Assembly (NCBI GenBank): GCA_012719355.1
Contig: JAAYAM010000277.1
Span: 1 to 39,231 of the forward strand
Length of the DNA: 39,231 bases
Source of the DNA: Acidobacteriota bacterium
GTDB lineage: Bacteria > Acidobacteriota > UBA6911
Reading direction: 5' to 3'
Shown: in pieces, positions 6,932 through 29,354 of the stretch
Layout of the letters: the number at the start of each line of letters is the position of its first letter
Position numbering within the stretch: the first letter of the stretch is position 1
Position numbers and translations under genes: made by a program
Notes under the pieces: generated by a model
Database searches by the model: none
Told to the model about the DNA's origin: nothing
What the model saw: only the letters and a program-made list of their open reading frames with translations

Positions 6932-7018
6932 TATTCAGTCCTCGATTCCCTGAGCATTCAGACATGAGCTTGTAACTATACCTCGAAGCCTTCCAGACTC
7001 AAATATTGGTGGAGGATG

Positions 7019-7024
7019 TATAAT
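7019..7024 (+). promoter_or_regulatory. Candidate -10 element for uvrB-aroA
   Basis: A perfect TATAAT lies 20 nt before the uvrB ATG in the 112-nt divergent lepA-uvrB gap. No good -35 box sits 16-18 nt upstream, so confidence is limited; I see no clear LexA-type palindrome in the gap. Confidence 0.35.
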
Positions 7025-7043
7025 GAGGATTTGAATTCTTGCA

Positions 7044-9122
7044 ATGGCCAGAAAACCTGCGACAGATAAAGACCTGACCTATTCGACCATCACTTACGGG
7101 AAGGCGCTTATTCATTCCTCCGAATTCAAAATCAGCACCTCTTTCGAACCCTGCGGTCACCAGGCCGCCGCCATAGAGGATCTCGTGAAGGGTATCCAGG
7201 ACGGTGAGAAGCACCTGGTGCTTCTTGGCGTCACCGGGTCCGGAAAGACTTTCACGATGGCCAAGACGATTGAAGCCCTTCAGCGTCCGGCGCTGGTGCT
7301 GGCGCACAACAAGACGCTGGCGGCGCAGCTTTACCGGGAGTTCAAGACGTTTTTCCCGGAGAACGCGGTCGAGTACTTCGTTTCCTATTACGATTACTAC
7401 CAGCCGGAGGCATACATCGCGTCCACTGACACCTATATCGAGAAGGATGCACTGATCAATGACGAAATCGACAGACTGCGTCACTCCGCGACCAGGTCGC
7501 TGTTTGAGCGGAAGGACTGCCTGATCGTCGCCAGTGTCTCGTGCATCTACGGCCTGGGGTCGCCGGAAGCCTACTACGGAATGCTCCTTTTTCTCGAGAA
7601 GGGGGAGAAGATCAAGCGGGATGAGATTCTGCGCCGCCTGGTTGAAATGCAGTACTCGCGCCAGGACTACGGGCTCGAAAGAGGATCCTTCCGGGCGCGT
7701 GGCGATGTGGTGGAGGTCTTCCCAACCTATGAAGACTATGCCGTCCGGGTGGATATGTTTGGAGATGAGATAGAGTCCATCGCCCAGATCGATCCGATAA
7801 CCGGGCGTGTCCTGAAGAAACACGAAAGGCTCCCCATTTACCCGAAGTCGCATTATGTTCAGCCCCGCGACCAACTCCTGCGAGCTATTGACAGCATCAG
7901 GGAAGAGCTGGAGGAGTGGCGCACGGAGCTCGAGAAGGAAGACAAGCTGCTCGAAGCGCGCAGGCTGCACCAGAGGACGATGTTCGATCTCGAGATGATG
8001 AAGGAGCTGGGGTACTGCCGCGGCATCGAAAATTATTCTCGGCACCTCACGGGAAGGAGCCCCGGAGAACCTCCTCCAACGCTGCTGGACTACCTGCCCA
8101 GGGATTGGATACTGTTCGTGGACGAGAGCCACGCCACGATTCCGCAGGTGCGCGGGATGTATTTCGGAGACCGTTCCAGGAAAGAGGCCCTGGTCAAGTA
8201 CGGGTTCCGGCTTCCTTCCGCACTGGATAACCGGCCCCTGAATTTCTCGGAATTCGAAGAAAGACTGAACCAGGTGATCTATGTTTCAGCGACTCCGGGG
8301 CCTTACGAGCTGACGAAGGCTTCGGGAGTCGTCGTCGAACAGCTGGTGCGGCCGACCGGCCTTACCGATCCCCTGATCGAAGTGCGTCCGGTCTCGGGGC
8401 AGGTCGACGATCTCATGGAAGAAATCCGGCTCCGGGCCGAACGCAACGAGCGCGTGCTGGTCACGACTCTGACCAAGCGTATGGCCGAGGACCTTGCCGA
8501 GTACTACACCGAACTGGGGCTCCGGGTACGCTATCTCCATTCGGAAATCGAGACGCTCGATCGGATCAAAGTCCTGAGATCGCTGCGCGCCGGCGAGTTC
8601 GATGCGCTTATCGGGATCAATCTTCTGCGTGAAGGGCTGGATCTGCCCGAGGTCTCGCTAGTTGCAATCCTCGATGCCGACAAGGAAGGATTCCTTCGTT
8701 CCACCACATCCCTGATCCAGACAATGGGACGCGCGGCGCGGCACATCAACGGGAAAGCAATTCTATACGCCGACGTTATTACGGGCTCGATGCATGCGGC
8801 CATCGACGAAACCAACCGTCGCCGCGTCACTCAGCAACGGTACAACGAGGAAAACGGAATCACGCCGCAATCGATCGTCAAGCCTCTTGATCCGGAACTG
8901 GTCAGGATTTACGAGGGAGATTATTACGAAATCCCGGCTGTCGCAGAAGAAGTCAGACAGTACAGCTCTCCTGAAGAACTTGATTCTGAGATCAGGCGCC
9001 TTGAAAAGGAAATGCGCGGCGCTGCGAGGGAATTCGAGTTTGAAAAAGCCGCCGCACTCCGGGATCAGGTCAAGAGACTCAAAAAACTTGCCATGGAATT
9101 GTTCAATCAGGAACCATCATGA
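7044..9122 (+). CDS. uvrB: Excinuclease ABC subunit B (UvrB)
   Basis: UvrB is the damage-verifying helicase-like subunit of nucleotide excision repair; it receives DNA from UvrA and recruits UvrC. This 692-residue copy has Walker A GVTGSGKT (62-69), the damage-probing beta-hairpin region [19 protein letters not shown], the helicase motifs [34 protein letters not shown] and [13 protein letters not shown], and a C-terminal UVR coiled coil (about 655-690, [20 protein letters not shown]) that contacts UvrC. It is slightly longer than usual because of about 27 residues before the core. The Q-like motif reads GHQAAAI, where GDQPxAI is typical. The ribosome-binding site is weak (AGGA about 14 nt before the ATG). 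aroA overlaps its stop by 4 nt, implying translational coupling. Confidence 0.98.
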
Positions 9123-27443: not shown

Positions 27444-29168
27444 CTAACGCCACTTGTCTACCGAGGCGCTCGACAGATAGCCGAAATCCCCGGCTTGCCA
27501 GAAGAGGTTGGTTCCGCCTCCCACCGACAGGATGTGTATATTGGAGGGACTCACAATCTGCGGTATCTTAGCGTCCCTCGGGAGTTTCATCCATGATGCG
27601 AACGGTTCTCTCCCCTGCTTTCCGGTCGGGAGTATGAAGTTCTGCACGCTGTAGTAGTTGTCCAGCCAGTCCCCGACAGTGACGAACGTGTTTTTATGGA
27701 TCCATTCGATCAGCTGCTCTTTGGAATCGAATCCTTCACGTTCCTTGAGCTGCTTGATAATAGTCGGGTCGAGCAGCAGCGTGACGGGAGAAAACGGGCT
27801 CACAAACTGCAGCCAGAACGGGATCTGGGTGTGGAAGGGCTTTCCAAAACTCTGATCCGGGTGGGTGAATCCCCAGCCGTTGAAAGTACTGACAACACTT
27901 TCGTTGGGCTTGAATCCGTGCTGCACGTGGAAGGGTTTCCATCCCGGGGGGAGTTCCTCTTCGTTTTCCGGCATGCACAGGTTGTTGTAGTTGAAGTTGT
28001 TCCCCTGGCTTCCCATGTAGGTCTCGCCTACTTTGGCGCCGGCAGCCAGATTGATTGACATCAGGGTCCAGGCTCTTCCTATGACTGCATTGGAATGGTT
28101 GAACGGGCCGAGCGCGCCGATTCCGGCATTCATCTTGATCTCGTTCCGGACAGGGCCGTTCACCACGACCATTCTTGCGAATGAGGTGGTCGAGGTGAAG
28201 AGAGATGGTTGTCCGGTCGAAGCCAGCGCAAGTATCACCGGAAACTGCTCCGGCGTGGCGCCTGCCATCACAGCGTTCACGGCAACTTTTTCCACTGTGT
28301 AGCTCCAGAGCTCGTGCGGCGAGGAAGGCTGCATTCGGCCGACCAGCTCATCCGGTTTCCTGCTGGTTCCTTTCAGCATTTCCGCGACACGCGCTTCTGT
28401 GGGAAGCACTACAGGCAGTCCGTCCGTCCAACCGTTGTCCAGAAACAGGCGGTGCAGCCTGTCGGCGGTGTCCGGTTCGACGAGTCGCGGAGTCGGTCTC
28501 TCGATGAATCCTTTCTTCGTGTCTTCGGCCGTGAGAGGATCCATCAATCCGCCGATGATTTCCTGCAGCACTGGTTTGCCGGAGACCGGGCTATTGCCTT
28601 GGAGGTACTTGCGGCATAGCTCGGCAGGCACGCCCGTGATGGGATGGGGCACGAAAGTGAACCGCTGATTCGGCATTCCTTTCTTGAATGCGTAGGTAAT
28701 TACCAGATCACGAAATACTCTGGTGACGACAGAAGACGTGGGTACTCCAAGTTTTTCGACTGTCCAGCTATGGCCGACGACCGACGGCGAGCAGGAACTT
28801 CAATGACCTACCCCCATGATCATGCCATGGCCTTTCTCCTTTATTTCGGCCCACAGTTTGGGATCGTCGTCGAAATAAGTTCCTGCCTTTATCCTGACAA
28901 CCCAATTGGTTTTCGGATATTTCGCGCTCAGCAGTTTCTGCATCTCCGTGAAGAACTGATGAGTATCGGTGAAACCGATGTCGACGATGTAGATGGTCTT
29001 GCCTTCAAGTGTCGTCAGACGGGGTGCCATGGGAACTCGTGCTATGGCGGGAGGCTGACCAAGCGGGTTGAAAACGGTTATTTTGGGTTCCTGCGCCTCA
29101 GAGACGCTGAAAAACAGCGGAACGTAGAGAATAACTGCTATCAGTGATATGCCGGTTTTCTTTTTCAC
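27444..29168 (-). CDS. UGSC-family selenoprotein, in-frame UGA decoded as selenocysteine (574 aa)
   Basis: Start is a GTG at 29168 with GGAG 7 nt upstream. Residues 1-26 are a signal peptide (ISLIAVILYVPLFFSVSEAQ). An in-frame TGA at 28802-28800 is codon 123. Both sides are open in the same frame: 122 codons before, 451 after, ending at 27444. The sequence around it, GHGMIMGVGH-U-SSCSPSVVGHSWTVEKLGVPT, matches the UGSC family (typically ...GxGxUGSC...), giving a redox-like U-x-x-C motif with Sec123 and Cys126. The large C-terminal part (about 195-574, NGWTDGLPVVLPT, TVEKVAVNAVMAGATPEQFPV, VVVNGPVRNEIKMNAGIGALGP) is a domain often found with it. The half beginning at the 28676 ATG has no usable ribosome-binding site of its own. 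Enzymatic reaction unknown. Sel genes are not in the window. Confidence 0.85.
28763..28802 (-). promoter_or_regulatory. Bacterial SECIS-like hairpin following the UGA
   Basis: Reading the minus strand from the TGA: stem TCC (28796-28794), T.T mismatch, GCT (28792-28790), one unpaired C, GCCG (28788-28785), an 8-nt apical loop containing GGUC, CGGC (28776-28773), a CAT bulge, AGC (28769-28767), T, GGA (28765-28763). The two loop guanines are 17 nt past the UGA, close to the position in E. coli fdhF mRNA, whose loop is also GGUCU-type. SelB recognises such elements. Hand-folded only. Confidence 0.65.
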
Positions 29169-29354
29169 TCCTTTTCTCCTTCGAAAAGCTGCACTTCCGG
29201 TTGGCTCGAGAGTACTCCGGCAAAACTATCCTTTTCAGCGGAAAAATGAAATCAAAAAGAGCAACCCGGGTAGCATTGAGGTTAATGGGTGGCTTGTGGC
29301 CTTTTTTTGGATTAGAATTTCGAAAGCTTCAATTACCCCCTGGAGACAACAGAC

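Follow-up and report, generated by a model that had tools for sequence, protein, structure and literature searches.

One open frame across a UGA codon: a predicted exported UGSC-family selenoprotein from an expanded family in a genus of Acidobacteriota

Background

A protein in which the UGSC domain is fused to a conserved domain of unknown function (UGSC/Unknown_1) was reported in 2008 from ocean metagenomes in the Global Ocean Sampling selenoproteome paper (PMC2398784). UGSC proteins are a little-studied family of selenium proteins. The family figures 26 and 33, which we read as organisms and proteins (ISME J 2016, PMC5029168), correspond to about 1.3 proteins per genome. Selenocysteine (Sec) is also found in GrdB, the selenoprotein B of glycine/betaine/sarcosine reductase, and in PrdB of d-proline reductase (PF07355, TIGR01917, TIGR01918), where it is used in the reductive cleavage of amino acids (PMC13188914).

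The locus analysed here lies in the window, i.e. the whole stretch of 39,231 nucleotides of contig JAAYAM010000277.1 from an Acidobacteriota bacterium (assembly GCA_012719355.1). As judged from comparative sequence evidence, it is one gene with Sec at codon 123 and not two genes. An initial sequence-only reading had already proposed this; the follow-up added the signal peptide, the C-terminal domain as a separate unit, the expansion across the genus and the relationship to GrdB.

Results

On the minus strand, the frame from 29168 to 27444 contains the TGA at 28802-28800 as its sole internal stop and is otherwise open to the TAG at 27446-27444 (Table 1). The sequence-only reading had placed the split gene correctly, with a GTG start, the TGA as codon 123 and a TAG end, and the 41 codons that it described as open between the TGA and the ATG at 28676 are indeed open. 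Its prediction that standard gene calling would split the gene is borne out by the mechanical ORF list, which gives both expected pieces, 28800-29168 (122 aa) and 27444-28676 (410 aa). It was also fair to deny the second ORF a usable ribosome-binding site: only an AAAGGA directly abuts the ATG at 28676, without any spacing, and a GAAGGAG lies 7 bases ahead of the GTG at 29168.

Table 1. Positions of the gene and its predicted features in the window
Feature	Position	Strand	Basis
Gene, 574 residues, GTG start, TAG stop, UGA codon 123 read as Sec	27444..29168	minus	
Shine-Dalgarno sequence GAAGGAG, 7 nt 5' of GTG	29176..29182	minus	sequence
Predicted Sec-type signal peptide VKKKTGISLIAVILYVPLFFSVSEA, residues 1-25	29094..29168	minus	sequence and hydrophobicity heuristic, no dedicated predictor
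UGSC domain (PF24696), residues 32-187, proposed remote relative of the GrdB/PrdB active-site domain	28608..29075	minus	
UGA codon, predicted Sec123	28800..28802	minus	
Cys126, putative resolving partner in U-x-x-C	28791..28793	minus	Cys of UxxC near-invariant among Sec members
SECIS-like apical hairpin, nt 15-30 from the U of UGA, loop GU at nt 22-23	28773..28788	minus	
C-terminal domain, residues 235-574, uncatalogued, no PDB match for the model	27447..28466	minus	
Spurious second ORF expected from a gene caller, ATG 28676	27444..28676	minus	ORF list

The source genome (G000; 4.57 Mb in 377 contigs) encodes selA (555 bits), a full-length selB (398 bits), selD (366 bits) and a tRNA-Sec with the anticodon tca (UCA), so that the complete set, selC included, is present, whose absence was named in advance as a refutation of selenocysteine. 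The selD gene (G000:C126:9885-10814) has an in-frame TGA of its own and is likely a selenoprotein gene itself. Each of nine other genomes of the genus possesses one ortholog with 72-81% identity, whose only in-frame TGA falls at the corresponding codon. Since this holds for nine out of nine, the open frame is not a product of chance. In the tree, the window gene and these orthologs form a single clade with a support of 1.0. Across the nine orthologs, 120 of the 206 codon differences in residues 124-164 are synonymous, and third positions take 62% of the base changes there, matching the flanking coding regions; in the region of the signal peptide, which is without such constraint, only 16% are synonymous. 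The stretch behind the UGA is therefore conserved and coding-like without a frame break in any of the nine orthologs, and the second anticipated objection, a segment that is not conserved or is disrupted in related genomes, falls away as well. In the wider family, the TGA occupies the same column in 91 of 109 aligned members. Taken together, the Sec machinery, the orthologs and the Cys homologs described below support a protein of 574 residues, and there is hardly any doubt left that UGA 123 is decoded as Sec. This remains a prediction, as incorporation was not measured and there are no peptide or selenium data.

The SECIS criterion, a hairpin right after the UGA with GU in its apical loop, is met. 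In the Sec members (n=91), the 42 nt after the UGA fold more stably, with a mean z of -1.32 compared to other windows of their own gene and of -0.95 compared to synonymous re-draws, while the same site in non-Sec paralogs (n=13, with Ser, Leu, Gly, Asn or Thr) gives -0.03 and +0.04; the window gene itself reaches -1.77 and -0.89, respectively. The loop GU at nt 22-23 is present in 30 of 33 distinct sequences of the USxC group and in 21 of 21 of a second group. In this second group, pairing (0.865) exceeds the maximum of 500 shuffles (0.825), and the other groups only equal their shuffle maximum. The evidence from covariation is limited, because the stem pairs are mostly invariant. The putative hairpin is thus well supported by position and enrichment but only partly by covariation, and Rfam has no match at the UGA.

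The assignment to the UGSC family holds, as PF24696 matches the window protein with 92 bits at a cut-off of 25. The score against NCBIfam NF041046 is only 67.1 bits and misses the equivalog cut-off of 125; the protein therefore represents a divergent, fused branch of the family. Of the anticipated U-G-S-C-type motif, the family stood but not the exact letters, which are U-S-S-C (GVGH-U-SSC). The conserved site, Sec or Cys followed after two residues by a further Cys, is occupied by U123-S-S-C126, and homologs with Cys at exactly the site of codon 123, the existence of which had been left to be checked, were found. The fused Cys protein of Neorhizobium galegae, detected by tblastn on plasmids, matches the window protein with 47% identity across 96% of the length (GVGH-C-STC instead of GVGH-U-SSC) and sits among Sec forms of Rokubacteria in the tree. 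Variovorax has a fused C-G-S-C form, and further C-G-S-C forms are present in the haloarchaea Natrinema, Halalkalicoccus and Haloterrigena. Within the genus set, none of the 109 members has Cys at the Sec site. The idea that no Cys form exists was nevertheless rejected, since plasmid records outside this set gave such forms. As far as alignments can establish it, Sec and Cys are interchanged in the UGSC fusion family. A Sec-type fusion is located on the conjugative IncP plasmid p2-T1 of Acidovorax sp. T1 (7001-8179), where it is recorded only as a 291-bp hypothetical gene, which is the kind of misannotation that had been predicted. No relatives were found in viral contigs.

It is quite likely that the window protein is exported, although the signal peptide was assigned by a heuristic only; 74 of 104 family members also satisfy this simple hydrophobicity criterion, and some non-Sec paralogs resemble TAT lipoproteins. 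The C-terminal 340 residues and their stand-alone relatives gave no match in Pfam or NCBIfam. Pro256, Val261, Ala296, Met301, Gly338, Asn360, Gly364, Arg365 and Glu401 never vary among 112 sequences of this domain and Asp249 hardly does, and no invariant Cys exists. Its AF2 model (pLDDT 78, pTM 0.81) matched nothing in the PDB below E 1 (best E 1.7) and nothing significant in BFVD, so subject to model quality the domain may have a new fold. The full-length model (pLDDT 65) had no PDB match below E 0.001, and profiles of both domains against PDB sequences returned only noise.

In three distant genomes (G017, G037, G045) and in haloarchaea, the UGSC domain and the C-terminal domain are encoded by separate, adjacent genes, and the window protein is therefore a fusion. 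We consider it highly probable that it is one bifunctional protein, the two parts of which, going by this gene arrangement, presumably act together. On one contig of genome G007 (L192, G007:C100:25000-44000), several UGSC fusion genes are clustered with two stand-alone genes, one for UGSC and one for the C-terminal domain.

A search with PF24696 in ten genomes of the genus revealed 10-28 UGSC-domain genes per genome, with twelve in the source genome; genomes from elsewhere in this class gave no match or a single one. Among the matches listed, those of the source genome carry one TGA each, except for a fragment cut by the contig end, and non-Sec copies appear in G004, G007 and G008. Between U and C of the UxxC motif, the residues vary by clade (USSC, USTC, USQC, USVC, USLC, UDGC, UDSC, UPGC, UWGC, UHGC and UGSC). 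Where paralogs have Ser, Thr, Asn, Gly or Leu at the Sec site, this suggests a loss of the selenol and not a change to Cys. A close paralog in G008 (C178, L068 1568 frame) with Leu (CTG) at this site branches from within the Sec forms of the tree. The named contigs that bear orthologs belong to Acidobacteria MAGs from Zodletone spring, as the isolate names suggest, and from other samples, with Rokubacteria next. The gene counts demonstrate an expansion of the UGSC family in this genus of Acidobacteriota, of which our literature search found no published report.

A 591-aa UGSC paralog of two of these genomes, G007 (L191, G007:C289) and G009 (L190, G009:C14), contains four in-frame TGAs at codons 131, 132, 566 and 568. 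The first pair is an adjacent TGATGA at the active site (GFGG-U-U-GC), the second lies near the C-terminus (GGH-U-V-U-AP), and a strong hairpin follows each pair. The two copies are 88% identical, and their differences are biased towards synonymous ones; both assemblies are apparently drafts of many contigs. A bacterial precedent for adjacent selenocysteines was not found in the literature search, which is no proof of novelty. The paralog would allow to test whether one bacterial ribosome run decodes two consecutive UGAs.

Discussion

The explanation that we prefer, with a probability of roughly 0.5 for the whole of it, is an exported selenol-based reductase that cleaves its substrate. Sec123 would be inserted by the resident SelA, SelB, SelC and SelD, helped by the hairpin directly after the UGA, and the protein would then be exported via its signal peptide. 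The N-terminal UGSC domain would present the Sec123 selenolate, which, as inferred from homology and from the UxxC motif, might attack an electrophilic bond of a small organic substrate, cleave it reductively and be left as a selenenylsulfide with Cys126. Re-reduction could be accomplished by a thioredoxin-reductase-like flavoprotein or another electron carrier, as the operons of Cys homologs imply. The fused C-terminal domain, with its conserved Asp249, Asn360, Arg365 and Glu401, would probably bind or prepare the substrate, and paralogs with differing middle residues in UxxC may form a repertoire for different substrates.

The relationship to GrdB and PrdB rests on profile comparisons. In hhalign, the UGSC domain matches PrdB/GrdB-like proteins of other Acidobacteriota, many of which have Sec themselves, with a probability of 75-86% and scores of 42.7-46.8, and the Sec columns align Sec-to-Sec; 40 column-shuffled controls stayed at or below 20.9 and the reversed profile at 11.7. 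Such proteins (L140-L159) have U in motifs such as PVUPMCNQT, and many appear truncated at the TGA under the standard frame. When 13 diverse UGSC domains were compared to 18,950 NCBIfam models, the most-shared matches after UGSC were of the GrdB family, namely TIGR01917 in five domains (best E 0.0014), GrdF in three (0.013), TIGR01918 in two and GrdH in one, all below the models' own cut-offs. PF07355 has no match in the window protein, in stand-alone UGSC proteins or in the source genome. Against the relationship stand also the lack of a matching PDB structure, the low confidence of the modelled Sec loop (pLDDT < 50) and the differing redox motifs, which are UxxCxxC in GrdB, UxxxC in the PrdB-like proteins of our analysis and UxxC in the window family. 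A remote kinship with Sec opposite Sec is therefore supported, but only over about 70 profile columns and with sub-threshold family matches.

The protein might instead be a Dsb- or Prx-like protein of the cell envelope, either an antioxidant with a thioredoxin fold or a thiol-disulfide oxidoreductase. The UxxC motif and the exported location would suit this function, and a likely thioredoxin-like fold was suggested when the family was first described (PMC2398784). We regard it as unlikely, although it is the strongest competitor. The AF2 model has the order E58-64, H70-83, E88-94, H103-112, E115-120 with Sec after the third strand, which is Rossmann-like and not thioredoxin-like, and the closest profile relatives belong to the GrdB family and not to Trx or Prx. 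Moreover, the large conserved partner domain points to an enzyme acting on a substrate, as do catabolic operons in which solute-binding proteins are encoded alongside CoA or amide enzymes. In Variovorax and Haloterrigena, the Cys homolog shares an operon with a Pyr_redox_2 protein (pyridine-nucleotide reductase) of 303-305 aa with thioredoxin-reductase-type CTAC/CAKC motifs; these are only two of the plasmid contexts examined, and no such gene was seen beside the window gene. Other homologs are found in catabolic contexts with TctC and TRAP receptors, a CoA transferase, the PEP mutase family and malonyl-CoA enzymes. Because of the GrdB relation, the thioredoxin-reductase-like partners and these contexts, a substrate-cleaving reductase is favored over a general antioxidant. 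GrdB-like reductive chemistry itself is inferred, its substrate is unknown, and we would put it at slightly less than an even chance. It is weakened by the occurrence of Cys relatives in Neorhizobium and haloarchaea, since one would expect reductive cleavage less in such aerobes, and complicated by export, as no route is known for re-reducing an exported selenol.

It is also conceivable, but rather improbable, that the selenoprotein and the tungsten aldehyde-oxidoreductase (AOR) systems that this genus has work together, for instance with the selenoprotein as the exported partner for electrons or substrate. The AOR family (PF02730) has expanded too, to 8-25 copies per genome in the source genome and nine others of the genus, and 15 of 151 UGSC matches lie within 6 kb of an AOR gene, where about 6.5 are expected. 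Three UGSC paralogs of the source genome (L052, L053, L062) adjoin AOR genes, two of them together with a gene for a TAT-exported 4Fe-4S protein. However, the excess is small (about twice the expectation), the genomes are not independent, and no AOR gene adjoins the window gene.

A UGA acting as a real stop, in a decayed gene or between two separate proteins, is scarcely credible: apart from the mechanical listing of two ORFs, everything speaks against it, namely a TGA position shared by all nine orthologs, purifying selection on both sides and in between, Cys homologs read through as single proteins, the full Sec machinery and the second ORF without a spaced ribosome-binding site. Pseudogene and two-gene readings were accordingly rejected on coding-like conservation, Cys read-through forms and the layout of the ribosome-binding sites. 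Least plausible of all is a UGA that this organism suppresses or has reassigned, e.g. to Trp, a reading invited by the many in-frame TGAs in UGSC genes and rejected because TGA is the normal-end stop of about half of the other window genes, so that the code is standard, and because the in-frame TGAs are confined to one motif column matched by Cys outside the genus.

As a wider and speculative picture, which we hold to be less likely than not, a lineage of anaerobic Acidobacteriota might have turned a GrdB-like Sec reductase, fused to a partner domain whose fold may be new, into many exported terminal reductases for different organic substrates, following a logic like that of other expanded periplasmic reductase families. 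One member would have four selenocysteines, from tandem UGAs at the active site and a U-V-U near the C-terminus, with a SECIS-like hairpin per pair.

Conclusions

The 10-28 UGSC genes per genome far exceed the figure of about 1.3 for the family, and since nearly all of them are broken by standard gene calling, such genomes are badly misannotated. The link to GrdB/PrdB, the conserved partner domain and the thioredoxin-reductase-like partners turn an unknown into a testable enzyme class, for which the Neorhizobium Cys form offers a version whose expression does not depend on selenium machinery.

Compared to the UGSC family as defined by PF24696 and NF041046, the window protein has the Sec in UxxC at the same place, the same strand-helix context and the same interchange of Sec and Cys, but it differs by USSC instead of UGSC, by the signal peptide, by the second fused domain and by a score below the NF041046 cut-off. 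The UGSC/Unknown_1 fusion (PMC2398784) likewise joins UGSC to a second, conserved domain of unknown function and probably represents the same architecture, although the sequences were not compared. It was described from metagenome fragments, and the part of the text available to us mentions neither export nor expansion, a relation to GrdB or split-gene pairs. The haloarchaea Natrinema, Halalkalicoccus and Haloterrigena encode both domains of the window protein side by side, however as two unfused genes and with Cys instead of Sec. With GrdB and PrdB, the window protein shares the aligned Sec and a Rossmann-like order in which a strand ends at the redox motif, and thioredoxin-reductase-type partners occur in some operons of UGSC homologs; it differs from them in having UxxC and not UxxCxxC and in its predicted export.
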